Shown: piece after piece, positions 3,916-45,975 of the stretch
Layout: every line of letters starts with the position of its first letter
Position numbering within the stretch: the stretch's first letter is position 1
Notes under the pieces: model-generated
The model's input: only the letters and a program-made list of their open reading frames with translations
Told to the model about the DNA's origin: nothing
Databases searched by the model: none
DNA from: Vitis vinifera
Taxonomy: Eukaryota > Streptophyta > Magnoliopsida > Vitales > Vitaceae
Direction of reading: 5' to 3'
DNA: 64,000 bases
Assembly (NCBI RefSeq): GCF_030704535.1
Contig: NC_081810.1
Span: 496,501 to 560,500 of the forward strand
Translations under genes and position numbers: made by a program

Positions 3916-4400
3916 TCAGGTGGCTGTTGTTGTGAACTGGTAAGAGGCATAAGAGAGAGTACCGAGGCTCCAGCTATGGTGGATGAGTTTGGAACCCATG
4001 GCTACATGCAATGGATAGAAGTGTTCCAGCCATGGGTGGGCCTCTCTGGCATGCGGTGCCTTCTCTTCATAGTGATTTATGTCTTCATATCTTAAACACG
4101 AACATGTAAATATAAATGTCAGAAAATGAAACAAAACAAATGACTGCCGCTGCTTCAATGCATAGGAGCAACTCTATTTTATGTTGCTTGATTTTATGGC
4201 AAAGAATAGCGTATATATATAGTAATTGAATGATTACCTTCCATCAAGGAGAGCTTCTTTCAACCAGGTATCAAACTGATCATATGCCCAAGGCACAACC
4301 GATTCACTATTGGGATTGAGCTAGGGCCCTCAGATTGTGAGTGGCACTTCCAGAACCAATGATGAGGACGCCTTTTTTAAAGTCTTCCAGACCTACTTGT
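3916..4400 (-). pseudogene. Captured fragment of a LigB / 4,5-DOPA dioxygenase extradiol-like gene
   Basis: On the minus strand, 4238-4400 encodes GVLIIGSGSATHNLR and, after a small frame break, a stretch ending FDTWLKEALLDGR. It stops at a GT splice donor (intron from 4237 down). Another exon, 3916-4090, begins after an AG acceptor and completes the same codon. It reads [20 protein letters not shown], then FYPLHVAMG and [11 protein letters not shown]. These are hallmark C-terminal stretches of plant extradiol ring-cleavage dioxygenases (LigB/DODA family), including the His-rich metal-site region. The intron is retained, so the piece was taken from genomic DNA, not from a message. The frame break and missing N-terminal part make it non-functional here. 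It lies opposite to the transposon's own genes, as is common for captured sequences. Confidence 0.85.
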
Positions 4401-17728: not shown

Positions 17729-20229
17729 GGGTTGAACAAATCATGCATATCAGACCCTAATTTTACACAAATCATAATAGTCAAGAATTTTATAATGATA
17801 TGATTTTCTTAGTTTTATTATTGAGGAAAAAAATAAAATCGATAGGGAATTTTTTAAGAGACCAAAACAATAAGCATAGTAAAAAATAGAAATTATGTTT
17901 CTCTCCCTTAACCCTTTCACTCTTTTTAAGTTTTTTTTTTTATACATATTATTGATGGAGATAGAACACTTATATTGTAAATTGGAGATAGAACTACTTT
18001 TTTTTATAAAATTGGAAGTTCACTTTTCATTAAAGTACCTTCAATTTAAGAAACTAACTTCTCAAAAAGTGACCAATAGGATTTTAACTTTATTATCTAT
18101 TAAATCATAATATTTACTTTGATATTTGAATAAATATTACATAATGATATACATGGCCCATGTGATATACTTTCATGACTTAATAAATAAAACATAATGC
18201 CTAAAACATGAAACTAAAACACTCTTATTTGATCACATCATAAATTATAATTATAATTAACTAATGAGAATCCTGACGATTGTACATCACTATTTCAATA
18301 TAGTCCCTCCCATGTACTACACAATTAGCTCCCATTTAACATGACTTGTAAATGAGAAGTAAAATAATAATCCATAATAATGTCTTTGTCAAAGACTTTC
18401 CTTTTTACATTAATATGTTTGCAATTATGTATACAAAACAAATATGAGGAAATTTCATAAACATATAATAAAGCTCTAGAGTATTTGAAAAATAATCATC
18501 ATCGTGTGATCAATATTGTAATGTGTCTAAGGTGATGTTTATTTTTTGACTAAATAAAAAAAGTCAAAATATTTGGTTTTTTCTATTAAAATAAAAGTAA
18601 TTTATTGACATCGTTCAATATAACTTAATTGAACATTTTGATAACAAGTTCACTTTAGTTATATTGAACGATGTCAACAGGTTGCTTTTAACTTAATAGA
18701 AAAAACTAAATATTTTGGTTTTTTCTATTCAGTTAAAAAACAAACACCACCTAAGACTCATAATTTCCTCATGGTATTCAATATCTTAGTAGCATTTCTT
18801 TCATCATTAGGTCTTCAACCATAACATGCAATCAATTAATTTAACACTCTTGTCTTTTAATTATCTCATCATATAAATAAAACCTTAACCTTATATCCCA
18901 ATGATCATAAAATATTTGTTGTTGAAAGAAAAGTGACAACGTACGAACCTATTATTTTTAGCAACTTGGCAATAAAGTCAACAAATTCAAGTCCCAAAAT
19001 AATATTCCACAACCATAATTCATAATTTGTGACACATTATGCCACAATACATATTTGGATGGAAGACGGTCATGTCTTTTCCATAATATTGTTCATTTGC
19101 ATAATCTTTCATTAATAGGAACAAATAACAAAAGTAGACTTTCAACTATCATTCAACATACTTAAATCTAAAATTAAATAAAAAGGATGCAACATTAAGG
19201 TTCCTCTCTCATAACACTTTCAATCCATCAAATATCTCAAAAACCTTTAAATATATATACTTTGTGAGACAATCTAACAATTCATGTAACTTCACATAGG
19301 ATATGTTATCTCATCACATAATATTGTCTCTTTTATATATTTTACCATTAAATTTTGAGATTTTATTTCACAATCTAATGCAATAAATAGAAATCCAATA
19401 ATAACTAACAAGACATTACCAATATAAAAAATAAGTCTTATCCTATTGATCTTTGGATATATTCACTTAATGATAGTGATTTTCTTAAATCCAAAGAACA
19501 TTATGATATCATAAAGTTTAAGATATTACAAAGGAATATTAAAATTTGTATATCGAAATTGACTTTCAATAGTAGTTTTAATTGATAACTTCAAATTCAT
19601 CTCTTAAATTTAATCATTAAATATGAGCCACTTAACGAAAATATGATATTCTCCCACTTGGCTCACATTTTACTTTGAGAAACAAACTTGAAGTATCAAA
19701 TAAACTAGAAATCAAACATTTCATGCTAAACTTCTAGCTTGAAAGATCTTATTATGTGGTTATAATATCGATACCTGGAATAATATATTTTTCCCCTTGT
19801 AAATATATATAAATTTATGTCATTCCTAATATATAAAAGATCCGACTAACTTCATTAATTTAAGAGTGATTGATCATTTAGTTGTTATTTACTAACTTTA
19901 ACCTTCGTCAATAGTAAGCAACGTCTTTAAAAGTTATAAAGTTAAAAACAATTTTATTATAACTCTTCAGGTAACCATATTTCATGGTACTTATCACTCC
20001 CGTTAATAATATAAACATTCTTAATAAGCCATACATTATTAGTTTTAACAATCACTCATAATACTTCGGTTCGAATTATAAATCTTATACCTTTGGGGTA
20101 ATAAGAAATACTTGACATACTCCAACCAAGTAGCATTGAATTACAATTATACTTGATATAACACAATTACAAAGTGTATAAATAGTTTAATAGTAATTAT
20201 ATATAACATTTACCATCTTAAAATATAAT
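17729..20229. other. Non-coding segment between RLP-2 and RLP-3
   Basis: About 2.5 kb of AT-rich DNA with no coding region; a PIF/Harbinger-type MITE sits inside it. Both ends are abrupt: LRR sequence stops at 17728 and restarts at 20230 with an earlier part of the gene. The right edge is shared with RLP-1 (window bases 1-35). The string TTCTCCCACTTGGCTCACAT near 19652 is reminiscent of plant copia-type LTR elements. The segment may therefore be a worn LTR fossil, but I found no paired LTRs and leave it unassigned. Confidence 0.5.
18531..18751. mobile_element. MITE (PIF/Harbinger-type), 221 bp, TAA target duplication
   Basis: Inverted ends GGTGATGTTTATTTTTTGAC and, on the right, GTTAAAAAACAAACACCACC, flanked by TAA on both sides (18528-18530 and 18752-18754). 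The two halves pair along most of their length. A perfect inner inverted repeat (GACATCGTTCAATATAACT and its complement near the centre) means the whole element can fold into one long hairpin. It has no coding capacity. The 3-bp TWA duplication is typical of PIF/Harbinger elements. Confidence 0.85.
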
Positions 20230-20471: not shown

Positions 20472-21673
20472 TGTCACGCCCCAAGACCCACTCCAAGGGC
20501 GTGACGGTCATTTCACACCTCAAACCCGAAGGCTTAAAGTATAATCTGACCCAAACAATCATATTGTAACTGGATGTTACCAATTACCAAATACCTGTTC
20601 AGAGTAGCGGAACAAAATCTAAAATCCTCAAAATTCAATTTCCAAATAATTTCCAAATATCAAATGATCCAAATGAACATAACTAACAGTTAAACAAAAT
20701 CTAACATAAAATCCTAAGTCAAATCCTAATGATGACCATTCTTCAGCCTAGCCATCACTCCTCACCCGAACTAAGAGTACCTGAAAATTTTCAACAATTG
20801 GGAATGAGCTCACAGCCCAATAAGGAATATTAATGCAATTCATGGATCAAATATTTTCATTTCAAATAGGAGATATCAAATTTTTTTTTTCTCATCAAAT
20901 ATCAGAGTTCCAAAAATACCAATATATTCAAAATTCAACCAACCAATTTCATATCAAATTCAAACACTTTCACATAAGATTCAATCAAATTCATTCAAGT
21001 TTCATTACTTTGGTTATCAAATATCAAATGCCCTATTAGGTGGGACTTTTCAAATGGGTGACTAGCTTCAAATTGTTCCTGGTGGACGGAACCAAACACT
21101 ACTAGTACTAGTAACCTCTAACCAAACCCCTAGAGGCTGGGGTCCAAATCAAATACATTCCCACCATGAAATGTAAAGGTCAACTATTATATCCCGTTGA
21201 CAGGGCCGAATAGTCAACTATTATATCCCGTTGACAATGGCCAAATAAACCAGAGTGATGTTTTTGTTCAAGTATTCAAATTTACACAACATAATATCTC
21301 CATATTTTGTATCATAAATAAAACAAAATATTCCAACATAATATTTAGTCCAAAACAGTTTGATCCATGCATGGTAACAAAATATCATTTTCTTTTCCAC
21401 AATTCAAAATAACATATAAAATAATTTAATTTTATAAATATTGAATTAACTTCCCTTACCTCAAAAGAAGTCCTTGAAAGCTTGGGAGAAGAATAATTCT
21501 GAAAAAAAAAAAATCTACTATTCACCTAATATAACATAAGAGAAACAATTATTACTATTTATTTATAATTTAACTAATCTATTCCTTATTTAAATAAAAC
21601 TAATAAATTCCCAATTTGTTTCTAATAACACATTACTAATTTAATTAAATTACAATTTTATTTCATTATAAAA

Positions 21674-21723
<50 letters not shown>

Positions 21724-21879
21724 CTAAATCTATTATTACTATTATCTTAATTATAAATCTAAAACTAAATATTATTATTTTAATTAATCAATTCAAAAGC
21801 CACTCAATGTCTCGGGTACACCAAACCAAACCAAAAAAAACAACTTTTTTTTTTTTTTTTCATTTCCATCATCATGCTT

Positions 21880-21921
<42 letters not shown>

Positions 21922-21983
21922 GCTCATGTCTCGGGTACAAAGCAAGTTTAGTTTTTTTTTTCCTTTCATTTGCCATCATCATG

Positions 21984-22039
<56 letters not shown>

Positions 22040-22120
22040 GCTCCTTCCAGCACAGTACACGTCTCCCATTTTTCTTTTTTTTTTCCTTCCTTCCTTCCAG
22101 TGCTGTGCACACGCGTTCTC

Positions 22121-22160
<40 letters not shown>

Positions 22161-22700
22161 TAATCTCTTCAACCACAAATAACAATATATTTATTTATTT
22201 ATTTTTATATAAAATTAACCCTAGCCTAAAATCAAAACCTTCCAAGGAAATTTTTTTTTTTTTCTAATAAAACTTAAGATCTCCCAAATTCCAATACTAA
22301 AATCAAAATCTTATATTTTCACTATTTGATATTAAAACGAATTAAGAAAAATAATCTAACCCTAATCTAGATTTGGGGTTTTCCAAAAAAATATATCTAA
22401 TGTGTTTGAAATTAATCAATAAATCTAAAATATTAAACTAGGGGTTAGAATCTTACCTATAGAGATCTATTCTTCAACCCTGAAATCTGACTCCAACTTT
22501 ACGTTCTCTGGAATTCTGCGAACAGGAACTCTATTCAGAAAAGAAGGGAAAGAATAAAATTTCTAATTTATACCTAGGGTATTTATTCGTAAAATTACAC
22601 TTTTACCCCTCTTCCACTTTATTAAATTAATTAATTAACTAATTAAATTATTAATAACAATTTCCTAAATTACCCTTAAAAGAAATGCCTGGGCGTTACA
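20472..22700 (-). repeat. Left LTR (3' LTR of the minus-strand element)
   Basis: 2229 bp, TG...CA. It contains a ~34-bp tandem duplication around 'gtcaactattatatcccg' (about 21179-21245), long TA runs and poly-T tracts. The other LTR carries the same features with different TA lengths. Confidence 0.95.
21676..22150. repeat. (TA)n and poly-T microsatellites in the left LTR
   Basis: Three long TA runs (about 21676-21722, 21882-21918 and 21988-22036) and a poly-T run near 22127-22150. They are present but shorter in the right LTR (about 35248-35280, 35442-35483 and a short one near 35553). This explains most of the 50-bp length difference between LTRs. Short open frames translating to repeated Tyr-Ile here are artefacts of the TA repeat. 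Confidence 0.9.
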
Positions 22701-22713
22701 TCCTCCCCTCCTT
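22701..22713 (-). other. Polypurine tract
   Basis: On the minus strand this reads AAGGAGGGGAGGA, directly beside the left LTR. It is the expected priming site for plus-strand synthesis and confirms the element's minus orientation. Confidence 0.85.
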
Positions 22714-22722
22714 AACAAAAGT

Positions 22723-25700
22723 TTAGTCCTCTAAACTTGACATACTTGAGTCTTGGAATAACTGAGGATGCTTTTCTCTCATCTCTTCTTCTAACTCCCA
22801 AGTGGCCTCTCGGATACTATGATTGCTCCACTGGACCTTTACCAACTTGACAACAGCATGTCGTAGTACCTTATCCATCACATCCACAATTTGAACGGGT
22901 ACCTCTTCATAGGTCAAGTCCTCAAAAATTTGAATAGGCTCCAACTCCACAACATGAGAAGGATCATAAATATACTTCCTTAGAGTCGAAACATGAAACA
23001 CATTATGAACCTTAGACAGGCTTGGGGGTAAGGCTACTTTATATGCCAAAGTGCCTACTCTTTCTAATATTTCAAACGGACCCACAAAACGAGGACTAAG
23101 TTTTCCTTTTCTCCCAAATCTCATCACAGACTTCATAGGTGAAACTTTCAAGAACACATGATCACCCACCTCAAACTCCAAATCTCGCCTACGCTGATCA
23201 GCATAACTCTTATGTCTACTTTGAGCTGCTTTTAATCTTTCTTTAATCAAAGCAACTTTTTCAACAGTCAACTGCACAAGTTCAGGCCCCAATAGTTTCC
23301 TTTCTCCAACATCATTCCAACAGATAGGAGATCGACATTTCCTACCATACAATGCCTCAAAAGGTGTCATCCCAATGCTAGCTTGAAAACTATTGTTATA
23401 GGCAAACTCTACTAAAGGCAAATGATCATCCCAATTACCTTGCAGGTCCAAAATACAAGCTCTCAACAAGTCTTCCAAAACCTGAATTACCCTTTCTGAT
23501 TGGCCATCAGTTTGAGGATGGAAAGCAGTACTAAAACTCAACTTAGTGCCCAAAGCTTTTTGTAGACTATGCCAGAATCTAGAAGTGAAACGAGGATCTC
23601 TGTCAGACACTATAGAAACTGGTACTCCATGCATTCTCACAATCTCCTTCACATAAAGAGAAGCTAAACGATCTAAAGAAAAGTTGACTTTCATAGGCAA
23701 AAAGTGAGCAGACTTTGTCAACCGATCAACAATCACCCAAATAGCATTATTACCCCCTAAGGTTCTTGGCAATCCTATCACAAAATCCATGGTAATATGC
23801 TCCCACTTCCACTCAGGAATAGCAAGTGGCTGCAAAGACCCTGCTGGTCGCTGATGTTCAGCCTTCACCTGTTGACACATTAAACACTGAGCCACAAATT
23901 GTGCAATATCACGCTTCATACCTGACCACCAATAGTTTTGCCTCAAATCCTTGTACATCTTTGTCCCTCCTGGGTGGATTGCAAACTTGGAACAATGAGC
24001 TTCCTCTAAAAGCTCCCTCCTTAAGTCTTCATCATTTGGGACACAAAGTCTAGTCCCAAATCTCAAGATCTTATCATCTGACAAAACAAAATCAGGCTTA
24101 CTGCCCCTCTTAACTTCCTCCATAACTTGCACTAATCGGGAATCATTCTTTTGTAGGGTCTTAATTCTCCCAACTAAGTCTGGTTGTACTCTGAAATTTG
24201 CTACAAGTGCTCCTAAGCCCATAACTCGAAAGTGGACTTGTAAACTCCTCAACTCTTCAAGTAACTGCCTTTGACAACCTCTAATAGCTGCTAGAGAACC
24301 AACTGACTTCCTACTCAAGGCATCAGCTACAACATTCGCCTTCCCAGGATGATACTGAATAATACAATCATAGTCCTTAAGTAGTTCTATCCATCTTCTC
24401 TGTCTCATGTTCAACTCCTTTTGGGAAAATAGATACTTCAAACTCTTATGATCTGTGAATATCTCACAAGTTTCACCAAAAAGAAAATGTCTCCAAATTT
24501 TAAGTGCAAAAACCACAGCAGCTAACTCCAAATCATGAGTAGGGTAATTCCTTTCATAAGGCTTCAACTGTCTAGAAGCATAAGCTACAACTCTTCCATG
24601 CTGCATAAGAACACAACCCAAACCCTGATGAGAGGCATCACTATACACCACAAATCCTCCTGAACCTGAAGGGATAGTCAAAATAGGAACTGACACTAAT
24701 CTATTCTTCAACTCTTGGAAGCTACATTCACAATCATCAGACCACTCAAACTTAACTCCCTTCTGTGTCAACTTAGTTAAAGGTAGGGCAATCTTAGAGA
24801 ACCCTTCTATAAACCGCCTATAGTAACCAGCAAGTCCCAAGAAACTTCGAATCTCAGTCACAGTACTAGGTCTTCTCCAATTAGCTACAGCATCTACCTT
24901 GCCAGGGTCAACTGAGATGCCATCATTACTTACCACATGCCCAAGGAAAGAAATTCGGTCTAACCAAAACTCACACTTCTTCAGTTTAGCATACAACTGC
25001 TTATCTCTGAGGGTCTGTAATACAATACTCAAATGACCCTCATGCTCCTCTCTACTTCTTGAGTATACCAAGATGTCATCTATAAAAACCACCACAAACT
25101 GATCCAAATAGGGTTTGAATACCCTATTCATCAAGTCCATAAAAGCAGCAGGTGCATTAGTCAAACCAAAAGGCATAACAAGAAACTCATAGTGCCCATA
25201 CCTAGTTCGAAAAGCAGTCTTGGGTACATCTTCCCCTCTAACCCTCAACTGGTGATAACCCGATCGAAGATCTATCTTAGAGAACACACAAGCACCTTGT
25301 AGCTGATCAAACAAATCATCAATCCGAGGAAGGGGATACTTGTTCCTCACTGTCACCTTATTCAACTCCCTATAGTCAATGCAAAGTATCATTGAGCCAT
25401 CCTTCTTTTTCACAAATAGAACAGGAGCTCCCCAAGGCGAAACACTAGGCCTGATAAAACCCTTGTCTAATAACTCTTGAAGCTGAACTTTCAACTCCTT
25501 AAGCTCCACAGGTGCCATCCTGTATGGGGCCTTAGACATAGGACCTGTTCCTGGTACCAGATCAATGGTGAACTCCACCTCTCTCTCTGGTGGCAAGCCA
25601 GGCAAATCCTCTGGAAAGACATCAGGATACTCCCTTACTATGGGTATGTCTTCCAACTTCAAATCACTTTCATTACTCATCACACTCGCCAAAAATCCTT

Positions 25701-27129
25701 GGCAACCCTTCTTGAGCAAGCTACTAGCTCGCAAGGCTGAGATCATACGCAGTGGTCTGTCCACATGCTTCCCTTCAAAGCTAAACTTAGGCTGACCAGG
25801 AATACTAAATGTCACTCTTTTCTCAAAACAGTCAACAGAGGCATGGTAGGAAGCTAACCAATCCATACCCAAAATCACATCAAAATCCTGAAGGTCAAGG
25901 AGTACTAAATCAACTGGCATTTCCCTATAACCAATCATCACAATACAATTTCTAAGCATTCTACTGGCCACAACAGAATCTCCCACAGGAGTAGCAACAA
26001 TCAAATCAAAGTCCATGCTAGCAACAGGCAAACCCAACAAACCAGCAAAAGATACTGAAACAAAAGAGTGTGTTGATCCAGGATCAATCAAGACTCTAGC
26101 AAATAAGGTGTGGATTCGGAGAGTACCTGTCACCACATCAGAAGTGGCCTGAGCATCTCGATGAGTCATAGCAAACACCCGTCCTTGGGCTTTGGGTTTC
26201 TGTTTATCCTCCTTATTTTCCTCTTTAGGCTTCCCAGTGATGAACTTCCTATTCTCTGGACAATCTCTGATCAAATGTCCTTGCTTCCCACAACCAAAGC
26301 AAGCTCCAGTCTCTCTATAGCATGGCCTACCCCCATGCTTCTTACCACAAGTAGGACAAGCCCCATCTAAATTCTGCGTTGTCTTCCCTTTATTCTGATT
26401 TCTTCCTGATGTAGACCTTCGCTGTGCTTGATTACCATGAGCACCATCACTCCTATTTCGTTTCCTTTGTTGTTCTCTATACTGATGAAGCTCCTCATTA
26501 TCTTTCTCTGCTATAAGGGCTCTGTCAACAACCTCTGAATAAACACCAAGCTTCAGAATAGATATCTTGTTCTTCAAATAAGGCTTCAAGCCATCCTGAA
26601 ACTTTAATGTCTTTTCCTCCTCTGTAGCAATCAACTGTGGGGAAAAACGTGATAACTCTGTAAATTTGGCCTCATATTGAGCCACAGTCATATCCCCCTG
26701 TTCCAAACAAATAAACTCTCCCATCTTCTGCCGCCTAACACTGTCAGGGAAATACTTCTTGTAGAAAGCCTCCCTAAATTGTCTCCATGTTATGGGTCCC
26801 TGATCCTCCAAAAGTCTCCTAGTCATACGCCACCAATGATCTGCCTCTTTATCTAACATAAAAGCTGCATAAGAGGCTTTTTGCTCCTCAGAGCAATCTA
26901 TGACACCAAAGAATTTCTCCATCTTAAGGATCCAAGCCTTTGCCTCTGTGGGATCTGTAGCACCAGAAAAGTAAGGAGGACCCAATTTCTTGAAGTCATC
27001 AAAAGAGCTACCCCTAGAAGATGAAGACTGTCCCTGAACATTAGTCCCAACAGCTCGAGCTTGGCGTTCAACTAAACCAGCTAGTGTCCCAAGATACCTA
27101 TAGATCCCTTCTGCACTCACGGGAGGCAA
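22723..27129 (-). CDS. Gag-pol polyprotein of the chromovirus, 1468-codon frame
   Basis: One long frame with, in order: gag (about residues 45-220), a CCHC zinc knuckle (277-290, [14 protein letters not shown]) and an aspartic protease ([11 protein letters not shown]). Reverse transcriptase follows ([20 protein letters not shown]), then RNase H ([15 protein letters not shown]). Integrase comes last, with an HHCC zinc site ([17 protein letters not shown]) and DDE core stretches ([28 protein letters not shown]). A chromodomain-like C-terminus ([20 protein letters not shown]) is typical of chromoviruses of the Tekay/Del group, which target heterochromatin. The first Met in this stretch is not the natural gag start: the nested element splits the gag region, and the start side lies near 33.8 kb. 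Treated as a fossil with one large break in gag. Confidence 0.93.
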
Positions 27130-29039
27130 ACCCTCAACTGGAGGTTGTAGACCCTCAATTTTGTTCCTTTAGCACATGTCTTTAAATTCATTTTCAGTGC
27201 TCCACAGTAGTTCCTTGGTGGCCCATGGCTACTCATACCACTTACCTTTTTTTTGAGTCACCTCAGAAACTTTGGTTGAGGGATTATCTGACCCCTTATT
27301 GTGATCATTGGCAACCCTAATTTAGACTTAGGCTTTTCATTCATTTTTAGGATAGCTTTTAGGGTAGCTCATTTAGGCACCCTAGATCCACTTGGGCACT
27401 CTAGGCCCATTTAGGCACCCTAGGTCACCTTTAGATGTTTCTGCATGGTTTGTATGGTTGCATGACTCGTATTTTCGCATAGTTGCGTGGCTCGTGTTTT
27501 TGCATGGTTGCATGACTCATATTTTTGGTGGTTTCATGGCTCGCATGGCTTGCATGTGGTTGACTTTTATTTTTTGCTTTAATTATTTTTTATTTTTTAT
27601 TTTTTTAGGTGCGTGATTTAAATTTCTCTTGATTTTCAATTTCATGATATTTATTAATTTTAATCTTTATTTTATTTTATTTTTATTTTATTTTTTGCAT
27701 GAGGAAACGGTTGTCATCTATTTGGAGGGAAGATCACCAAAATTTTAGAGAAAGGAAAGTGACAGCTGCATTATTTTATAAAGTTACCTCCACCATGCAT
27801 ATAGGGAAGACACAGCCATGAGGAAAAGGAAGGTTGCTGCCCATAGAAGAATATATGGAAACTTCCATACAAAAAGGATTTTTTAGAGAGATGCAATCTC
27901 CATGGACGGAGATACATGGAAAGCAAGGGGGGATTCTTTGGAGGGTCAGAGGGATAGGTGCACAGGAGGGAGAAAAGGGGGACTGGCAGACGCACTGGAG
28001 GAGGGGGAGGACGACGCATTGGAGGAGATTTTTTTTAGGAGAGGAAGGAAAAAAGAGAGCTTTTCTGGATTGTGAGAGGAGGATTCTTTTTCGATGGCAG
28101 ACGCATTGGAGGATTGGGAGAAATTCTGAGGATTTTTGAGGAGAAAGCACAAAGGAGCAGGAAAGGAGCAAGTGCAATCGAGATCATCCAGGTATTTTTC
28201 TCTCGTTACTTTTGGAATTCTTACCCATATTTGATTTTTCTTCTGTATGTTCGTTTTAATGTTTAATACAATGTTCTTTGGTATGGACGAAGAGGGCCAC
28301 AAAATTGTTTGTTGATATTGGTTATTTGCTAGTTTGCCTCGAATCTGTTCCTGATCATCCTCCCACCGATCCGAGCCTATTGAATGAAATTTGAAATAAG
28401 GCTTTCATGAGTTCCTCAGTTTTATTTATTTATTTTTTCTGTGTGTTGTTTTCGTTCTTTATACTCTGTTTTCTCGGTTGCATCCCTCTGTTCTTTATGA
28501 GGGATTTTGGGTGCATAATCGTAAGTGCTTCACCAAGTGATAATGCCTGCTGAAACTCTGATACCGAAATTTGGAAGCTTTACATTGGTTGAGACATGGG
28601 TTACCAGAAAAGTGGTGAATATGTGGTCTGAATTTCTTCAGCTTTGGGTCCCGCTAACACTCCATAACTGGAGCTTATTTTATGAATCGGGGTCGATCGT
28701 GTGAGAAGCGTGTAGAAACGGGACAGGTAACCAGATGACATGCTGAAGTTTTATGGAGAGAATATCTCATTGCTTGTGAACCCCGCTTGAAGTGGTCCTG
28801 TCAGAGTGATTTAAGATATGCAGCCTCATCGATCCTAGAAAATTGGTAGAAGACCTTCAGTTATGAAGAAGACCACTAAGACATCTAAATAGGAGTCAAT
28901 ATTGTCAGTGAATATTATCCAGTTGATGCAAGACAGAATATCAAATCTAAAGATACAGAGAGCTCTATGAACAACCTGATATTCAGAGTCGCGATGGGTC
29001 AATTGCTGCTACCTGTTATAGAGAAGTAACAATAATTTG

Positions 29040-29269
29040 GCACTGGTGCAACTGAAAGAAGAGTACATGAGGAAATTCCCTTTCTGGAATGATCCATATG
29101 TTCTAGTGAGCTTGCTTTCTGCTAGTCGACTGCGTGGAGATGTTGTAATTGGGGAGTGTTTGGCTAAATGGCTTCTAAAACTTCAGCTTGTGACTACTTC
29201 TCCTTATGTATTATTATCAAACTTGTATGCTTCAGATAGGAAGTGGGCAGATTTAAAGAACCTGTCATC
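29040..29269 (+). pseudogene. Captured fragment: PPR protein E-domain-like stretch
   Basis: About 75 codons containing DPYVLVSLLSASRLRGDV and SPYVLLSNLYASDRKW. This is the pattern of the C-terminal E motif of plant pentatricopeptide-repeat proteins (…LLxACRxHGNVELGE…YVLLSNIYAxxxxW…). Such proteins act in organelle RNA editing and processing. Only this short piece is present, and it is fused directly to an LRR-type stretch. It therefore reflects a captured, rearranged host sequence, not a working gene. Confidence 0.7.
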
Positions 29270-29512
29270 AGCGGACAACAACTTCTCCGACTCAACTTTA
29301 GACTCAATTTCGGGGTTAGAATCAATCAAGTCTTTAGATTTCAGTCGCAACCCCTTTTCTGGTGATATGGCAGCATCATCGACAAAACTGACTAATTTGG
29401 TATCCCTTAATTTATCGTTAAATGAGTTCGAAAGTAAAATTCCAAAAGGTCTCGAGCTGTTTTCAAAACTTGAAATTCTTGACTCGCATGGGAATAAGGC
29501 TCCTAATTGAAA
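29270..29512 (+). pseudogene. Captured fragment: LRR stretch of a receptor-kinase-like protein
   Basis: Three LRR units (DNNFSDSTLDSISGLESIKS, LDFSRNPFSG, LVSLNLSLNEFESKIPKGLE) in frame with the preceding PPR-like piece. The repeat wording differs from the surrounding RLP46-like cluster, so the source is another locus. A few hundred bases on, further protein-like stretches (for example 30799-31028 and 31670-32011) follow that I cannot assign to a family. Confidence 0.65.
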
Positions 29513-32500
29513 TGGATGTGTTTTCCAGTAGACGGCAATGCTTCCCATTCAACAAAAGCAATTTATTCTTTAGAAAATTTACATGGTTCTGAAGAGCATA
29601 CCATTCTGAGTGTTGAGGATGGGTTGGAAGTGACTAGTGGTCAGATTGGCATGCCACTGATGGCAATGAAGCCCCATAGAAACTGGGAGATCAGTCTTCA
29701 CAGCATTGACACCATTATAGAGAGCAGTCTTAAGTCTCATATGGTTTTAGAGGGGAAATATTTGATGCTTTTTTTTGTATGCAGTTGCTAAGGCCTTCAC
29801 AGGATAAAGCTGATATACTTATGTTTCCCTTGAAAGCTGATCTGATAGGAAAATTACATATGATGATGATATAAGGCCTATTTCAGTATCTCTTGAATCT
29901 TTTGGACCAAGGGCACCCTTACTCAACCAGCAATGAGAGTACCTCCCACTCAGCAGATGCCACATGTAGACAGCCAATTCCTCCACAAGTTAGCCATCCT
30001 TCTGAACCTTCATGTGGACAACCCTATGGCTATCCCTCTTCTGGTCAAATTCAAGATTACCTTGCTGTTGGTTCTCTTCTTCACATGTATGACCACCTTG
30101 GTGTTTCTTCATTACTTTATTGAACAAAGTAGATAGATGGGATGAGGTTATGAAGATTATTCAGCGTGTCTAGAAACTCACGAGAAATAAGTGTGGGTTA
30201 GAAGTCAAGTTCAGAAGCAGCAGACGGTAATGCCAAGAGAATAGACCAAGCAAAGAGCCACCTGCCAGGCCAAGATGGAATCTGTCCTTCAATCTGATTC
30301 TGTTCAACACTGAAAGAGATGATTGATTAAGGCAGGATTGCACTAGAAACTCCATCTCAAGAACCTTCAAACAACCACTTCAAAAAGGGCAGTAAAGCAG
30401 ACACTGAAATCCATAGAAGCTTTTATGAGGCCGCACTTCCTATTGATGATTTAGTAGACCGGACTGCTGAGGTCCTCAACTCTTTTAAGACTTGGTGCAG
30501 TGATGTACATGGGGGTGTTGACTGAGCAGCTTGCATTCCATACAGATGCTACAGTTGGGGATTTTCTTAACTCTACCTTCGGCAATGCAACTTGTAAAAA
30601 GCCTGGATCAGACTAACAGCCTTGTACGTAAAAAAGAGATCATCTCTAAAACCATGGATGGGTTTATGGATTAACGACAGCTCTGGTATCAATTCTGGAG
30701 GTCCTGTTACAACTTCTTTACAAAATTCTTCATTTGGTAAGATGAATTCAGAAGTGTTCTAAGAGAATCAGTCAGAATCCAGGCGCAAATAAAGAAGAAT
30801 GAGTTATTCTGCTTTTTCTTTAGAAATTGAATCAAATACTGGGTCGGAGCTTAAGGTGAAACTGCAGAAAGAGCATCTCAGGCAGGAGGTTATCATGAAC
30901 TTGTATGGCTATTCTAAAGGAAGAACTAAGATCAATCTCGCTGAAACTAGTGGTAGTTCCCCAGATCATGCAGGTGATGATAATCTTAATGGGCAGCAAG
31001 CTTTTGGAACATGGGGAAATAGAAGGAGTTGAATCAACTCAAAGCAGAGCTTGTTTCTCTGAAGTTTGACAATGGCTGGTTCCAGTAATTCTGCACTAAA
31101 GCTGGGTCAAAGACTTGCATCCTGTGGTGAATCCGTTTCACTTGCTTCTTAAAGCAAAAAACCACAATTTGAAGACTCTGCAATCTGGTTAGAAAATTAG
31201 ATCCCTTCAGAGTCAACTTGCCATCCAAATTTTAAAGGTTCAGAATTTCTAGTTATTTGAGAATTTAGTGGCCTCTAAAATACCAGAAACCACAGAAGAG
31301 TCTAAACCAACTGCTGGAATGGCACTTCCACACATTTCAGTAAGGCCATTTGCCTACTACTTCATCTCGGAAAACTGCTGGGTGTGGAATTAAGAATTCT
31401 GACCTTCCAGATTTAAAATGCTAGAAGTACAGAAAATACCCAGCTTTGCAAACTGTGCTGTTTCCCACCTACGGCACTTGCTTTAGACACTACCTTAGGC
31501 CTCCACGTGATTCCAGATCTGCATCATAAAAGGACATTGTGGTGGATTTCTCACTTATGCTTCATAGTTCAGCGCAAAGATCTGAAAAGGCCTGACGAAG
31601 ATGAACTTCCCATGAATTACCAAAAAATAGACTTGACTCAAGGATAAGAAGAGAGGTGAAAGAGAAACGGTGGCTAAAGAGGCAGTCCAGATCAGTAATG
31701 GACCAGAAAGTGGGATGCTTCTGATGAGGTTTACCTTGGAGTTGCCAAACCGAGTTCTGCAGCATTTCATTCTGTCACAGTCAATGAGGGACAGTCTGGA
31801 ATTCATGAAACTGTTCCCAATAGCTCAGTCTCAAAACATTCCTCTCATTGAATTTCTAACTCTTCCAATAACTGTCAGTGGTGAGGGTGATGGGTCGACT
31901 ACCGAGGATACAGAGAATGAGCTGAATACTGTCAGGTCTTTCACGGATCATAATTATGAAAATGATACCAAAAATGCAAGATTAGTGCCCGAGCCTGCTG
32001 AGAATCTGATCTAGGAAATTGCAGTTCTGAGGCTGGAAGTGTCCGTCCGGGACAATATCTCCTTTCATTGCAGCTGAGAAGCAGAGATGCTGCAGGAGAA
32101 TTCTACAGGCTTCGAGTTGTGGATGGGGTCATCTTTGAGCCACTCAGGGGTGCACATGCAGATCTGTCTTGAACTCTTTCCAGTGTATTGAAGCATTGTC
32201 TGTTATAGATAATTTTCTGAAGCTGAAATATAAAGACTGTAAAAATTCCAAAGCTCTCAATAAGGCCGCCCCTGTGAATCTTGCATATCATGCCTATGGT
32301 ACACCTTGGTCAATCATTGTACTGTGTTAACAACCAGAATTCGGATTTCCAATGCGCCTGAAGAGAGAAGGATATGGTTCTATGAAGCACAAAAAAATTG
32401 ATTTCTATGTGTCATTTATTCTTTTGAGCAAGAGTTACATCCAAGGAAGATAGAAAAACTACAGATGAAATAGAACCTCTAGATTGCAGAGTGGTTATCA

Positions 32501-34025
32501 AACTCCAGGATTCTGCAGTAGCAGAGCTCTTTGGTCAGTCTCCTCAGCCTTTCATCAACTTCAATTACAGCAACAATTTCCTCATGCACAGAAAAACTTG
32601 TCAGACTAAAATGCTTGGAAAAAGACTTGAAATTTTGATTTGGGCACCAAAGAGAGCAAAGCGTAGTTAAGGATCCAGCATCAGCAATGCAATTCCAGTC
32701 TCAAGTGCACTCGCAAGCTCTTCTCCGTGGGGTCACCTCGGTGCACACCTCCTCCTCTGTTTGCTTCTTTGATTGGGAATTCGTTGTTTTAAATTGAATT
32801 TTCAAATCCTTTTTCAACTAAACATTTCTAGCTTTGAAAAATCCATCTTTAAATCCCTTCTAGATAATAAAACCCAGATTTTAGTAAATTTGCTGTCATT
32901 TTCCTTTTGACATGCATTTTCACTATTTTTTTTAATTTTCAACTATTTTCTTGATTTTCTCGATTTTCAACAAGCATGACTAAAATTCATGATTCCAAAC
33001 AATGGAATTCATAGAACAAACTCATGCGAAATTAATTAGGGCTTTGGTGGGGACCCCACATGCATAACACTCACTTCAATATTGTTTGCTTGATATGTTG
33101 ATTTTTTATTCTTCTTGATGATATACATGAATTTGTTTCGTATTTATTGTTGAGATGCTCTTGATTCCCATAGAGGAGTACTAGCTTGCTATCCAGGTAC
33201 GCTCTCTTCTCATCTATTTTTTAGAACTCTATGGACTTGTATGCCATTGATGACTATATCTATATTTGATGTGATTCTTGGATATCTTGATATATGCCTG
33301 ATTTGCTTGAATAAAACAAATGTCGTGTGCTACAATTCTACACTAACTTTTATGTTTTATGATAGCGCTTGAAGAGCGGTTCAGGTACGCACCCTAACTC
33401 ACCTTTATTGCAATTTGATTGTGTTTGGCATGCCACTCTTTAAAATCACCCAGCCTATTTAGGTATCTATGATTGACTGATTAATTGCCACACTTCCCTT
33501 AACTTTGTTAGTAGAGACCTCTTTAGGGCTTAGAGGGGTGCTACCTCCTAGAGGTACCTTCCCAATAAGTAACCTGATCCCCGGACTTAGACTCGGGTTT
33601 TTCAAAGACATGCTTTTTCCGAAAATTATGGAGTCACATTTTAGGGTTTTTCTTTCTTGTTTTATTTTCCCTTTAAAATAAAAATAAAATAAGTGGCGAC
33701 TCCAACTTTTTTTAAAAAAAATCAATTTTTCACAAATAAAAAGCGAGTCTCGCCGATCGAGTGGGGACGCATGTGAAAAATGCGGGTCCACAGAGGTACA
33801 TCGTCATTAGCCTGACTGTTTTGGGAAGATGCAGGTCTCCTTGGTGGCATGGTGTCCTATAAAGCAATAGGTGTAACTAAATTAGTCACTAAGAAGTCAA
33901 ATAAGCAAATCAGAATTGTAAGGAATAAAAGGAATCAGACTAGATGAAGTTGAAACTTAAACTAATACGTCACTCATCTATTCCCAAAGGTACACTAAAC
34001 AAGTTCCCATCAAGATCACAACCTA

Positions 34026-34039
34026 GTGCTTTGATACCA
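34026..34039 (-). other. Primer-binding site, initiator tRNA-Met type
   Basis: On the minus strand this reads TGGTATCAAAGCAC, three bases from the right LTR. It matches the usual plant tRNA-iMet site (TGGTATCAGAGC) with one change in the first twelve bases. Confidence 0.85.
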
Positions 34040-34042
34040 CTC

Positions 34043-35243
34043 TGTCACGCCCCAAGACCCACTCCAAGGGCGTGATGGTCATTTCACACCTCAAACCCGA
34101 AGGCTTAAAGTATAATCTGACCCAAACAATCATATTGTAACTGGATGTTACCAATTACCAAATACCTGTTCAGAGTAGCGGAACAAAATCTAAAATCCTC
34201 AAAATTCAATTTCCAAATAATTTCCAAATATCAAATGATCCAAATGAACATAACTAACAGTTAAGCAAAATCCAACATAAAATCCTAAGTCAAATCCTAA
34301 TGATGACCATTCTTCAGCCTAGCCATCACTCCTCACCTGAACTAAGAGTACTTGAAAATTTTCAACAATTGGGAATGAGCTCACAGCCCAATAAGGAATA
34401 TTAATGCAATTCATGGATCAAATATTTTCATTTCAAATAGGAGATATCAATTTTTTTTTTCTCATCAAATATCAGAGTTCCAAAAATACCAATATATTCA
34501 AAATTCAACCAACCAATTTCATATCAAATTCAAACACTTTCACATAAGATTCAATCAAATTCATTCAAGTTTCATTACTCTGGTTATCAAATATCAAATG
34601 CACAGTTAGGTGGGACTTTTCAAATGGGTGGCTAGCCTCAAATTGTTCCTGGTGGACGGAACCAAACACTACTAGTACTAGTAACCTCTAACCAAACCCC
34701 TAGAGGCTGGGGTCCAAATCAAATACATTCCCACCATGAAATGTAAAGGTCAACTATTATATCCCGTTGACAGGGCCGAATAGTCAACTATTATATCCCG
34801 TTGACAAGGGCCAAATAAACCAGAGTGATGTTTTTGTTCAAGTATTCAAATTTACACAACATAATATCTCCATATTTTGTATCATAAATAAAACAAAATA
34901 TTCCAACATAATATTTAGTCCAAAACAGTTTGATCCATGCATGGTAACAAAATATCATTTTCTTTTCCACAATTCAAAATAACATATAAAATAATTTAAT
35001 TTTATAAATATTGAATTAACTTCCCTTACCTCAAAAGAAGTCCTTGAAAGCTTGGGAGAAGAATAATTCTGAAAAAAAAAAAATCTACTCTTCACCTAAT
35101 ATAACATAAGAGAAACAATTATTACTATTTATTTATAATTTAACTAATATATTCCTTATTTAAATAAAACTAATAAATTCCCAATTTGTTTCTAATAACA
35201 CATTACTAATTTAATTAAATTACAATTTTATTTCATTATAAAA

Positions 35244-35284
<41 letters not shown>

Positions 35285-35438
35285 TAAATCTATTATTACT
35301 ATTATCTTAATTATAAATCTAAAACTAAATATTATTATTTTAATTAATCAATTCAAAAGCCATTCAATGTCTTGGGTACACCAAACCAAACCAAAAAAAA
35401 CAACTTTTTTTTTTTTTTTCATTTCCATCATCATGCTT

Positions 35439-35486
<48 letters not shown>

Positions 35487-36221
35487 GCTCATGTCTCGGG
35501 TACAAAGCAAGTTTAGTTTTTTTTTTCCTTTCATTTGCCATCATCATGCTTTATATATATATATAAAGGCTCCTTCCAGCACAGTACACGTCCCCCTTTT
35601 TTTTTTTTTTTTTTTCCTTCCTTCCTTCCAGTGCCGTGCACACGCGTTCTCCTTTTTTTTTCTTTTTTTTCTTTTTAACATTTTCTAATCTCTTCAACCA
35701 CAAATAACAATATATTTATTTATTTATTTTTATATAAAATTAACCCTAGCCTAAAATCAAAACCTTCCAAGGAAATTTTTTTTTTTTTTCTAATAAAACT
35801 TAAGATCTCCCAAATTCCAATACTAAAATCAAAATCTTATATTTTCACTATTTGATATTAAAACGAATTAAGAAAAATAATCTAACCCTAATCTAGATTT
35901 GGGGTTTTCCAAAAAAATATATCTAATGTGTTTGAAATTAATCAATAAATCTAAAATATTAAACTAGGGGTTAGAATCTTACCTATAGAGATCTGTTCTT
36001 CAACCCTGAAATCTGACTCCAACTTTACGTTCTCTGGAATTCTGCGAACAGGAACTCTATTCAGAAAAGAAGGGAAAGAATAAAATTTCTAATTTATACC
36101 TAGGGTATTTATTCGTAAAATTACACTTTTACCCCTCTTCCACTTTATTAAATTAATTAATTAACTAATTAAATTATTAATAACAATTTCCTAAATTACC
36201 CTTAAATGCCTGGGGGTTACA
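34043..36221 (-). repeat. Right LTR (5' LTR of the minus-strand element)
   Basis: 2179 bp, TG...CA, about 99% like the left LTR apart from TA-run lengths and a 5-base indel close to the end. The same ~34-bp internal tandem duplication occurs near 34749-34813. Confidence 0.95.
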
Positions 36222-38041
36222 GTGCTTCTTTCAGTTTCGTCGAAGGGGGGGTTAGAATTCTTGGACTTGAGTGACAATGATTTATCCACGGAAATACCCA
36301 CTGAGATTGGGAATTTACCCAACATCTCCACTTTGGCGTTGAGTAACAACCGGTTGACGGGTGGAATCCCCTCGTCCATGCAAAAACTAAGCAAGTTGGA
36401 AAAGCTTTACTTGCAGAACAACTTGCTAACCGGAGAAATTCCATCTTGGTTGTTCCATTTCAAGGGCCTCCGGGATTTGTATCTTGGAGGAAACCGTCTA
36501 ACTTGGAATGACAGTGTGAAGATAGCACCAAATCCCAGGCCATTTCGCTTGTCTCTGAAATCTTGTGGTCTTGTTGGAGAGTTTCCAAAGTGGATTTCTA
36601 CCCAAACGGGTCTTGATTTCCTGGATTTGAGTAAGAACAAACTCCAAGGAGCACTTCCACAATGGTTTCTTGAAATGAGACTTAAAGGTTTAATTCTATC
36701 AGATAATGAATTTACAGGCTCTCTTCCTCGTCCTTTCTTCTCGTCTTATCTATGCATGCTTGCTCTCTCAAGGAACAATTTCTCTGGGGAGTTGCCTAAA
36801 AACATCAAAGATGATGCAATCTTCCTAAGGATTCTTACCTTGAGTGAGAACAACTTTTCCGGGCCTATTCCTCAATCCCTCATCAAAGGTCCCTACCTAC
36901 AATTATTGGATCTATCTAGAAATAGATTTTCTGGCCCATTCCCAGTTTTCTACCCTGAAGTACAACTAGCTTATATTGATTTCTCTTCCAACGATTTCTC
37001 GGGAGAGGTTCCAACGACCTTTCCTAAAGAAACAAGATTTCTTGCATTGGGCGGAAACAAGTTTTCAGGGGGCTTACCTTTGAACTTGACCAACTTGAGC
37101 AAGCTTGAACGCCTTGAACTTCAGGACAACAATCTTACAGGTGAGTTGCCAAACTTTCTCTCCCAAATCTCCACTCTACAAGTTTTGAACCTCCGGAATA
37201 ACTCCTTTCAAGGTTTAATCCCTGAAAGTATTTTCAACCTCAGTAACCTCAGAATTCTTGATGTCTCAAGTAACAACCTCACCGGAGAAATCCCCAAAGA
37301 GTCTCGTAACCTTGTTGGAATGATTGAAGCATCAAATTTGCCATCGTCAATCCTTGGGAAAATCACTTTAACTTTTACTGAAAGATGGTCGAGCCAAGAA
37401 GTGGAAGTCTCTCTGGAGTTCAGGGACTTGATAGTGAATTGGAAGAACTCAAAGCAAGGTATCTCCAGCGACAACCTTAACATCTACACCTTGTTAGACT
37501 TGTCAAATAACCAACTCTCCGGCCAAATTCCAGCCTCGTTGGGCGCTCTTAAGGCCTTGAAGCTACTCAACATCTCTCACAACAAACTTTCCGGGAAGAT
37601 ACCAACAAGTTTTGGTGATTTAGAGAATATAGAGAGTTTGGACATGTCCCACAACAAGCTCTCTGGTTCAATTCCTCAAACCCTTACAAAGCTGCAACAA
37701 CTCACCATTCTAGACGTGAGTAACAATCAGCTCACAGGTCGAATCCCAGATGGTGGGCAAATGGGCACAATGGTATTGGATCCAAACTACTATGCCAACA
37801 ACAGTGGATTGTGTGGTATGCAAATTCATGTGTCATGTCCTGAAGATGAGCCCCCACCACCGACAAAGCCACAGGAGCATGATCAGAAGGAGCCATGGTT
37901 TTTATGGGAAGGTGCATGGATTGGGTACCAGTTGGCTGCTTGTTAGCAATCGGAATCATATTTCTAACCGGGTATTTTACCTTACCACCACCTTCAAACC
38001 GTCGGCATCGCCCACAACGTCCAATCAGGCGATGGAATTAA
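36222..38041 (+). pseudogene. RLP-3, right piece: LRRs to C-terminus, with a late frameshift
   Basis: It resumes in phase with the left piece and stays open for 574 codons. It holds about 17 LRRs, the island (FRDLIVNWKNSKQG), four final LRRs, the cap GLCGMQIHVSCPEDE and the juxtamembrane stretch EPWFLWEGAWIGY. There a single C has been lost near 37929 ('gggtaccagttgg' against 'gggtacccagtcgg' in RLP-1), giving a stop at 37946. The membrane helix and basic tail are still readable in another frame up to the ancestral stop at 38039-38041. So besides the retrotransposon, this copy has an independent lesion that deletes its membrane anchor. Even before the insertion it would have been a secreted ectodomain. 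Confidence 0.9.
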
Positions 38042-39731
38042 ACCAGAATATTCGATCCAGGGGCGGTCTCCACAAGCAGTGAATTTCATGGGATGGCGAA
38101 GGCCTTTGGTTAAGTAAAAGTATTTGTGTCAAGCAGACTCGGTTGAATAGTATTAGCAAGTAACTTTGTGAGTGAAATGTAAAATAAAAAAGTGAAATAA
38201 AGTGGATTTTCTATGTAGTTTGATTTTGTTTGATAAGCTAGCATGCATGTCATTTCATGTATAATGTATATATTTACTTAGGTGGTGTTTTTTTTTTTTT
38301 TTACTTTTTGCTGAAAACAATTGTTTTCAAAATTTAGGTCGTTTGTTTTTCTATTTTTTCATAATTTATTATAAACTTTTTACTAAATAGCAAAAGTCAA
38401 AATATGTAACTTTTTCTAAATAGTAAAAATAACATATTGGTTTTTCTTTATTTTTTAATACTTGATAGAAATAAAATACTACAAAAATAAACAACCTAAT
38501 ATTTAACACTATTAAGTAAGGTTCTATTTATAATTAAGTAAAAAAACAAACATCACCTTAGTCTTCTATTAAATAATTTATTATTTATGATTATATATAT
38601 TATACTTGATCTTGGGTAAATTTGTCAAAAGCATAATTGAAGTTCCAAAATTTTATATGAATTCTTCTACCATATAAAAGTTGATGTACATTCCACATAC
38701 ATCATATATCTCATCATCATTAATTATATATCTCAATTCCTATTCATTTTTTCAAGCTATTTTTGAATATTAATAGTTAAGATTAGAAGAGTTTTATTTA
38801 TTCAAATTTTTTATTTACTATAAATGAGTGAAGTGTGTTTAAAGTAATATATAAAAATAATTTATTTATAATTTAAAAATTATATTTATAGTCATCAAAT
38901 TTCTTTTCACATCCATCTTAAAATATTAATCTTATTAACATATCCATTTACAAATTTTCAATATATCTAAAACATCATTATTATTATGCTCCTTTACATT
39001 CATCTTCTTCTCCTTTTTTTCTCTCAATTTTTTCCTTCTCAAGAATAAACTCCAAGAGAAAACATCTTTTAAGGCTCATTTGTTATGTAAATTTTATAAT
39101 AATAATAATAAACTTATTATAATAATAGTTGAAAAAGAATTAGGAGGAATTTAGAAATAATTTTAAAATGAGAAATCCTAAAAAAATACAAGATAAATAA
39201 AAGGAAAAAAGAACTCATTTCATAGTATCCAGACTTGAAAGGTTGAACACTATGTAAATGTTCAACCTTAATGTGTTGGACACCAAGAAGAGAGATGTAG
39301 ATTGATGCAAATATAATTTATCTTACTTTAAATCTATTTTTTATTTTTTCTACCATTTCTTCTTTTGTAGTTTTTCTCTCTATTTTCTTTTCTTCTTATC
39401 TTTCTTCAAATTTTCTAGGAAATCTAACATAACCCTTAATAGAAGAAAATGAAAATCTGAGAAATTTTGTTTTTCTTGCTCATGAAGCCCAAGTCTTGGT
39501 ATGAATGGGCCTTCCTTTAAAGGCCCCATTTGTAAATAATAAGGTACTCTTGTGCAACTCTCCCTCAACAATCCTCCTCTTCTGATTTGTTCATGTGAGA
39601 TGACTTCTTTCAACAATACCATACTTTTTACAATTTTTATGATAATATTAAAAACTTCATAATCATAGGTTTCTTTGCTTGTTAATTAAATAGTTCACAT
39701 TTATATCCAAGGCAAAAAAAAAATTAATATT
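38042..39731. other. 3' flank of RLP-3 and intergenic DNA
   Basis: AT-rich, no gene apart from a MITE. The stretch from about 38570 to 39560 is similar to about 44690-45610 downstream of RLP-4. Both contain 'catgaagcccaagtcttgg' followed by 'tatgaatgggccttcc'. So gene and 3' flank were duplicated together. Confidence 0.65.
38281..38557. mobile_element. MITE (PIF/Harbinger-type), 277 bp, TTA target duplication
   Basis: Ends GGTGGTGTTTTTTTTTT and AAAAAAACAAACATCACC, flanked by TTA (38278-38280 and 38558-38560). The termini match the MITE at 18531-18751, so they are the same family. Absent from the equivalent position after RLP-4, so it inserted after that duplication. Confidence 0.8.
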
Positions 39732-44495: not shown

Positions 44496-45975
44496 ACCAG
44501 AATATTGGATCGAGGGCGGTCTCCACAAGCAGTGAATTTCATGGGATGGCGGAAGACCTTTGGTTAAGTAAAAGGTATTTGCATCGAGTGAAATGTAAAA
44601 TAAAAAATTGAAATAAAAGTGCATTTTCTCTATAGTTTCATTATGTTGATAAGCCGGTATGCGTGTCATTTCATGCATAATGTATTTATTTACTTATTCT
44701 TCTGTTGAATAATATATATATATATATACTTGATCTAAGGGTAAATTAGTCAAAAGTATAATTAAGTTCCAAAATTTTAAATGAATTCTTCCACTACATA
44801 AAAGCTTATGTACATTGGGCATCAATCATATATCTCATCATTATTCCTATTCATTTTTTCAAACTATTTTCCAATATTTAGTTAAGAACTTAAGATTAAT
44901 GCAGTTTTATTTGTGCAAATTTTTATTTATTTTAGATAAGTGAAATAAATATAAAGTAATATGTAAAAATAATTTATTTAAATTTTATTTACATTTATAG
45001 AATTTCCTTTTACATGCACCTTATTTATACATCTATTTTGAAATATTAACCATATTAATGGCATTTAACTGCAAATTTCCAATAAATTTAAAATATTATT
45101 TTCACCCTTCTTTTCCATATTCATCTTCTTTCTTTTTCTTTCAAATTTTTTCTTCTTAACAACCATAATAGGAAAATATCTTGTAGGGTTTACTTGTTAT
45201 GTAAATTTTAATTTAAAAAAATCATTATAAAAATAGTTTTAAAACAATTAGGAGGAATTTAGAAATGATTTTAAAGTAAAAATTTATGAAAAATACAAAA
45301 GAAAAGAAGGTCGGTTCAAATATTCAATTTTAGTGTTGGGGAAAAATATGAATGTGTATTTCTTCTTAAGGCAAAAAAATTATTATTTAGATGGATGTAA
45401 GAAAAATTTATGTTAATGCAAATATAATTTATCTTATTTTAAATCTATTTTTTATTTTTTCTCTCTATTATGTTTTCTTCCCTTGAATTTTATAAAAATC
45501 TAACATAGGCCTATGAGAGGAAAAGAAAATCCGAGAGCTTTTGTTTTTCTTGCTCATGAAGCCCAAGTCTTGGTATGAATGGGCCTTCCTTAGAGGCCCA
45601 AGTTGAATAATAAATTTTTAAGTCAATAATAAAAACATATGGAGTAATATTTTGGCTTTGCGTTGATGAAATTAATCGTTAAATATAATCTTGACGTTTT
45701 TTTATCATATAAAAGTATTAAAAAAAATATGAAAATTGTTTTTAAAGGAAATGTAAACCAAAAGTGAGAGTTAGTTATAATAAAAATTGACAAAAATATT
45801 TAAAGAAAATTTTGAAAAGAATTAGATAAATAATTAAAAAAAATTTAAATTTTTTTAATACTTTTAGTAATTTTATCTCAAATAAGCTTAAATTTTTTAA
45901 GAATTTTTAAACAATTCAATATAAAATAACTGAAAATAAATTCCTTTATTTAAAAATTATAAATTTATAAATTCC
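44496..45975. other. Intergenic region between RLP-4 and the ribosomal protein gene
   Basis: AT-rich, no gene. It contains the RLP 3' flank duplicated with RLP-3. A TGGGCC ... GGCCCA pair near 45581-45600 resembles plant site II elements, but it lies about 450 bases from the L4 start and also exists at the RLP-3 copy, so a role in L4 expression is doubtful. Confidence 0.55.

Follow-up and report, generated by a model that had tools for sequence, protein, structure and literature searches.

What is the unit of about 6.65 kb that lies between positions 27146 and 33792 of a 64,000-nucleotide stretch of the Vitis vinifera genome, and how did pieces of host genes come to lie in it? A preliminary description of this stretch, the window (C6:496501-560500), had noted the ends of a long terminal repeat (LTR) retrotransposon around fragments of unrelated host proteins. 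It had left two options, one extraordinarily long LTR that had captured genes or a non-autonomous element whose LTRs had become unrecognisable. Here, we identify the unit as a solo LTR from a large family of plant retrotransposons in which full-length siblings exist. With a probability of roughly 0.7, we favour the reading that it belongs to a Tat-type Ty3/gypsy element whose LTRs keep fixed ends while the interior is repeatedly replaced, including by pieces of spliced host mRNA taken up through switching by the reverse transcriptase. The genome searched comprised 495.6 Mb in 21 contigs. C-numbers denote contigs, L-numbers denote fetched copies or stretches, and coordinates without a contig are those of the window.

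A solo LTR from a family with full-length siblings

The unit spans 6647 b on the forward strand, starts exactly with TGTAGACCC at 27146 and finishes with GGGTCCACA at 33792. It has TG...CA termini and is flanked by a perfect target-site duplication, GAGGT, at 27141..27145 and 33793..33797. These features had been described correctly, and they are not due to chance, as both ends recur in 18 of 20 relatives. A repeat search of 26800-34200 revealed no hidden LTR pair within the unit, all direct repeats being 39 b or shorter, which agrees with the earlier failure to see one. The unit has no internal region, and it had rightly been found to contain no transposon genes, since a solo LTR has none.

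A genome search with the first 301 b yielded at least 40 matches of 87-100% identity, scoring being limited to 40 of 1783 candidates; for the last 300 b, with 40 of 3827 scored, there were at least 40 matches of 94-100%. Real copy numbers are higher, because only these candidates were scored. We fetched 20 relatives from among the best 5'-end matches. At least the first ~270 b and the last ~440 b were present in 18 of them, with total lengths of 2,332-7,001 b. The longest LTR sampled, L011, measures at least 8,996 b and extends beyond the fetched sequence; no 3' end was found in the fetched sequence of L013. The 5' module (27146..27413) is matched in all 18 complete relatives, in L020 from 27148, and some matches reach at least 27426. 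The 3' module (33352..33792) is likewise matched in 18 of 18, with match starts ranging from 32744 to 33352 and a common end at 33792; it may hold the promoter, R and U5.

Perfect 5-bp duplications flank 12 of the 18 complete LTRs, among which L015, L016 and L023 (C18, 27.45-27.59 Mb) are not independent because their flanks, ~60 kb apart, are identical. These three are probably a segmental duplication bearing the LTR. The flanks of L021 and L025 agree at four of five positions, and those of L030 do not match. Directly after 3 of the 18 LTRs (L014, L022 and L024) stands AATTGGCGACTCCACT, a primer-site-like sequence. A similar primer-binding-site-like sequence, GTGGCGACTCCAA, lies inside the window LTR at 33693-33705, ~100 b before its 3' end; it resembles TTGGCGACTCCACT, found after the LTRs of full-length siblings, and is perhaps an old primer-site duplication. 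At L031 8530-9457, a family LTR end directly precedes an LTR end in inverted orientation (82% to 32857-33757), a tail-to-tail arrangement.

Two pairs of LTRs show that the family also occurs as complete elements, of ~15 and ~22 kb. On C8, LTRs of 4762 b each lie at 10301016-10305777 and 10311642-10316403. On C19, a ~22-kb element has LTRs at 15147273-15152576 (5304 b) and 15164301-15169605 (5305 b). Because relatives share both ends and these two-LTR siblings exist, the unit in the window is a solo LTR of their family. The single long LTR proposed earlier is thus the option that these siblings support, and a non-autonomous element with unrecognisable LTRs is not supported. Between the C19 LTRs, Pfam detected Retrotrans_gag (5.4e-15), RVT_1 (5.8e-28), RNase H (models at 5.9e-24 and 2.7e-23) and a second RNase H-like domain, RVT_3 (4.1e-17), which we take to be a marker of the Tat group. 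Judged by gag, reverse transcriptase and two RNase H-type regions in this one sibling, the family is classified as Tat-type Ty3/gypsy. The ~4.2 of 5.9 kb fetched from the C8 interior contained no open stretch longer than 128 codons.

Sibling LTRs carry spliced pieces of host genes

We compared 22 LTRs and partial LTRs. Their ends are common to many members and their middles to few or none; one subgroup (L018, L019, L020, L022, L024 and L028) apparently has a common middle. Several of these interiors match host proteins. Pfam identified sucrose synthase in L018 (2.6e-83 and 5.8e-30), myosin in L014 (1.8e-40), CSN4 in L021 (8.9e-22), and both Tho2 (5.2e-56 and 6.1e-37) and a pentatricopeptide repeat (PPR) protein (3.4e-12) in the single LTR L012. 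Setting apart the C19 gag and L038, 7 of 18 LTR stretches, from four LTRs, passed Pfam's curated cut-offs; this is not a rate, because stretches were chosen on the sense strand and partly by eye. A Cullin match in L015 (0.002) was weaker than the curated cut-off and was not counted.

The sucrose synthase piece, 154 amino acids long, was examined most closely. It has single-stretch matches of 133-154 residues at eight places, and in two of these the match contains one stop. Located LTRs hold four of the eight: L018 and L028 on C12, and the two LTRs of the C19 element (C19:15150472 and C19:15167501); the other four were not placed. A host piece is thus present in both LTRs of one sibling. The sucrose synthase gene at C5:410748-413407 is matched in four exons, and both C19 LTRs carry the piece uninterrupted. 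When L018 was aligned base by base with the gene, all three GT...AG introns proved to have been removed exactly, and the aligned exon pieces were 94.9, 96.0, 98.2 and 93.1% identical. Because 3/3 parental introns are exactly missing, this piece is derived from a spliced mRNA.

Three further pieces, as judged by match coordinates only, are likewise uninterrupted in an LTR and matched in separate pieces at a gene locus: CSN4 (gene at C18:10398003-10401236), myosin (for example C7:8401955-8402494) and Tho2 (C1:5818458-5819300). In all 4/4 pieces tested, a sequence split at a gene locus is therefore continuous in the LTR. C19:19728447 and C2:18542502 were considered as parent genes and rejected; because the family 3' module is present at both, we took them as sibling LTRs.

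Exact splicing bears on the idea that the host pieces were captured at the DNA level by a DNA transposon, such as a Pack-MULE or Helitron, nested in the LTR. Both are known carriers of gene pieces (PMC6431247). An inverted pair at 27688-27713 and 32571-32596 (26 nt, 81%) brackets most of the interior, and in L013 (7530-9113), downstream of the family 5' LTR end, a 528-aa open stretch was recognised by eye only as MULE-transposase-like. That pair is short and weak, and 26800-34200 contains no longer one. In 18/18 complete LTRs, the interior is enclosed by the same pair of end modules, and loss of all three sucrose synthase introns makes such capture unlikely. Neither terminal inverted repeats nor intron-retaining capture, the marks of Pack-MULEs and Helitrons, was found; Helitron ends were not searched for. 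We consider this explanation very improbable.

Absence of introns would also be expected if the host pieces were processed pseudogenes made by LINEs, or other nested insertions, that landed in integrated LTRs and were spread by retrotransposition and LTR recombination. The sucrose synthase, Tho2, CSN4 and myosin pieces all lack introns, and one nested insertion does exist in the family: ~1.77 kb at 3236-5004 of the solo LTR L034, with AGTGAT at both edges. Other observations speak against pseudogenes. The PPR and leucine-rich repeat (LRR) pieces of the window LTR, described below, are internal gene fragments with homologies ending ~20 b apart. No poly(A) was seen by eye at their junction, junctions not having been scanned systematically. 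Lastly, long open stretches lean to the element sense: across 19 LTRs, sense and antisense counts are 47 versus 28 at 100 aa or more, 28 versus 11 at 120 or more and 15 versus 3 at 150 or more, and 0/10 antisense stretches tested (from the 12 longest) matched Pfam at 0.01. We regard the pseudogene explanation as unlikely, with a better claim than DNA-level capture.

The window LTR contains a PPR-LRR fusion within a mosaic

The window LTR contains a 162-aa open stretch, from stop to stop, at 29022..29507 on the forward strand, as are all features of the LTR given here. In it, a PPR E-motif region is fused to LRRs. The PPR piece (29057..29247) is 95.3% identical in DNA, across its 191 b, to C11:16899567-16899757, part of a 592-aa open frame. 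The LRR piece (29268..29498) is 82% identical in amino acids to C10:14047813-14048043, in a 383-aa open frame. Pfam gave E_motif at 5.2e-5 and LRR_8 at 1.1e-4, both below curated cut-offs; among PDB entries, the stretch matched LRRs of receptor kinases (down to 3.3e-37) and, at 1.1e-7, a PPR protein. All six near-identical copies of the PPR part (99-100% amino acid identity) lack stops. The fusion noted in the preliminary description is therefore real, by Pfam, PDB matches and identity to the PPR gene.

The fusion belongs to a mobile cassette (28956..29496) that also occurs on C13 and in same-strand couples on C9 and C12. The C9 copies (8070978 and 8090404) are 19.4 kb apart and identical to each other at 539/541 positions; those on C12 (18028629 and 18043466) are 14.8 kb apart and identical at 535/541. 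By spacing and identity, both couples fit recent LTR pairs. The overlapping segment 28500..29041 is present at other loci on C11, C3, C7, C2 and C12 at 90-96%.

To the right of the fusion lies a coding-like mosaic (29507..32760) found in pieces in copies on C13 (L031) and C18 (L032, L033 and L034) at 87-99%; these copies cover 30.3 to 33.8 kb of the window at that identity. The left segment of the LTR (27146..28008) is closest to a C4 copy (97.7%; L002/L011) and unlike the C13 and C18 copies. Because the left and right parts have different closest relatives, the window LTR is in addition a mosaic of family members.

Is the rest of this interior derived from host genes too? The preliminary description had the unit packed with host protein fragments, and this stands for the PPR and LRR pieces and is unproven for most of 29.5-32.7 kb. 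Of the pieces that it could not recognise, 30331-30420 has a weak parent match (73% amino acid identity over 30 residues at C18:755978-756067), and most are without an identified parent gene. Searches for parents of 30331-30522 and 31637-32011 found only family copies, stop-bearing copies and weak pieces. Captured host pieces across most of 29.5-32.7 kb are nevertheless plausible.

One point in the mosaic resembles a trace of splicing. At 31261..31262, the window and L034 are without ~160 b found in L031, L032 and L033. The missing piece begins GTGAAATT and has a T-rich end, closing with GAACAG in L032 and L033 and GAACAA in L031. This difference is intron-like, as if a spliced intron were missing, with its end mutated in L031.

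Results from Pfam also bear on the opposite proposal, that the unit is a plain solo LTR with a merely coding-like interior whose host matches reflect chance or old repeats. At E <= 0.05, Pfam returned no family for nine of ten window stretches, and none of the ten reached a curated cut-off, as this proposal would predict; matches to Ldl_recept_b (0.23) and ACCA (0.059) were regarded as chance. Chance would not account for a 191-b match of 95.3% to the DNA of a PPR gene within a 592-aa frame, nor for the sucrose synthase, Tho2, myosin and CSN4 pieces in sibling LTRs. On these alignments, the proposal is refuted for the PPR and LRR part; for parts of 29.5-32.7 kb it may hold. As an account of the whole unit, we regard it as very improbable. 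The preliminary description had set against its own idea a picture of standard elements among the siblings and fragments without protein matches. Standard LTR elements are indeed among the siblings, and the fragments do match proteins and genes.

Template switching during reverse transcription could fill the LTR interior

How could spliced host sequence enter both LTRs of an element? In the retroviral cycle, both LTRs of a new copy receive the U3 that stood at the 3' end of the RNA. Therefore, one switch onto a host mRNA within U3 would fill both LTRs in a single round. We propose that host mRNAs are packaged together with element RNA. While copying U3, at the RNA 3' end, into the minus strand, the reverse transcriptase would jump to a host mRNA or a sibling RNA and then back. 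The normal cycle would copy this U3 into both LTRs, so that the new copy would carry the host piece in each, and repeated rounds would yield multi-gene mosaics in the element sense. Recombination between the two LTRs of such an element would leave a solo LTR like that in the window. We place capture at the RNA level, during reverse transcription, because of the exactly spliced piece, the lean of long open stretches to the element sense and the occurrence of a host piece in both LTRs of one element. Template switching as the step, and U3 as the site, are what we infer from this pattern.

Several points weigh against this reading. The case for template switching is indirect, being drawn from genomic sequence. 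U3 is a putative assignment for the site. The LTRs sampled were the best 5'-end matches and are not a random set. The sense lean is small for short stretches (189 versus 169 at 60 aa or more, 99 versus 70 at 80 or more), and all of these counts take related LTR copies separately. An uninterrupted 95% match to the Tho2 piece also exists at C13:1490541-1491299, which makes an intronless Tho2 parent possible. The C9 and C12 couples are known from cassette matches. For most of 29507-32760, parent genes were searched for and not found. Finally, the intron-like loss is just one of three length differences examined: a ~70-b difference near 30309-30329 and a ~448-b difference near 31911 were rejected as introns, as neither has GT-AG and the latter has CAGAGAA at both edges. 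Because of this ratio and the AA end in L031, chance keeps some small probability as a cause of the loss.

A further step would be to see in the LTR interior, and probably in its U3, a permanent slot for gene capture, filled by routine switching onto packaged spliced mRNAs while the element stays mobile. We advance this tentatively, as somewhat short of an even chance. If true, many lineages would each bear their own mosaic in both LTRs, in some cases drawn from several genes and in some with in-frame fusions such as PPR-LRR. The family would be an RNA-level engine of exon shuffling, and a changing U3 might aid escape from homology-based silencing.

Relation to known elements

The Ogre lineage uses a tRNA-Arg primer site, and gene capture by an LTR retrotransposon is known from Bs1. 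Ogre elements account for roughly 4% of Vitis vinifera genomes (PMC10845522) and have LTRs of 1.9-6.5 kb (PMC6431247). Like Ogre and other Tat-lineage Ty3/gypsy elements, the family described here has very long LTRs (2.3-7.0 kb in the 18 complete ones), large elements, 5-bp duplications and, in the C19 sibling, two RNase H-type regions. Unlike Ogre, several members have an LTR interior replaced by host-gene pieces, and the longest LTR reaches at least 8,996 b (L011). Ogre has two open reading frames; in pea and Medicago, the region separating them is an intron that is removed by splicing (PMC6317226). In contrast, the frame of the one C19 sibling stays open, without a shift of register, between gag and RT/RNase H, as read from two abutting open stretches (L022 7121-9997 and L046 3-3029) whose single border codon was not read.

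LTR retrotransposons of maize, rice and sorghum capture and multiply host-gene fragments (PMC2774510, PMC3726574), as this family does. In maize, 425 intact LTR elements hold gene fragments and none is described as holding more than one standard nuclear gene (PMC2774510), whereas single LTRs here carry at least two (PPR and LRR in the window, Tho2 and PPR in L012). The pieces here also differ in lying inside the LTR; the available text of PMC3726574 contains no statement of capture within an LTR. In BARE-2, abnormal template switching brought new sequence into the LTR region (PMC13317346), which offers a precedent for LTRs altered by switching between elements. The donor there was the retrotransposon Wis-2, whereas the donor proposed here is host mRNA. 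Cassandra TRIMs hold host-derived 5S rRNA gene sequence within their LTRs (PMC10853983), one conserved RNA gene serving as a promoter, in contrast to the changing set of protein-gene pieces in this family. Turmoil-1 of C. elegans has protein-coding sequences in its terminal repeats; these are inverted, and the excerpt of PMC2572040 does not describe it as an LTR retrotransposon. Gene capture by LTR elements is already known; among the titles and abstracts listed by literature searches of open-licence papers, we found no account of hypervariable LTRs with pieces of several host genes in a plant element.

The LTR itself may therefore act as a gene-shuffling vehicle. A family whose LTRs store pieces of several host genes, at least one of them from spliced mRNA, would be a direct source of chimeric reading frames, since every new copy doubles the pieces and solo LTRs remain in the genome as their residue. 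The captured pieces are perhaps also a source of small RNAs against the parental genes, and capture junctions would allow the template-switching model of gene capture to be tested. Such solo LTRs are also an annotation trap, because they resemble host gene fragments.

Surroundings of the LTR in the window

The solo LTR lies in an older LTR retrotransposon (20472..36221), on the reverse strand as judged from its open frame, with LTRs at 20472-22700 and 34043-36221 that are 95.8% identical. The open stretch of this host element, also on the reverse strand (22726..27150; 1475 codons within the part read, 22701-27150), reaches the insertion point and is broken by the solo LTR. Elsewhere in the window, related long repeats (~72-90%) occur at 33-1186, 36223-38280, 42659-44696, 52764-55508 and 57789-60461. 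Within the first of them, 248-472 matches an LRR query at 36% amino acid identity, and the repeats may represent an LRR gene cluster. A 241-b imperfect self-complementary stretch (82%) is located at 18521-18761.

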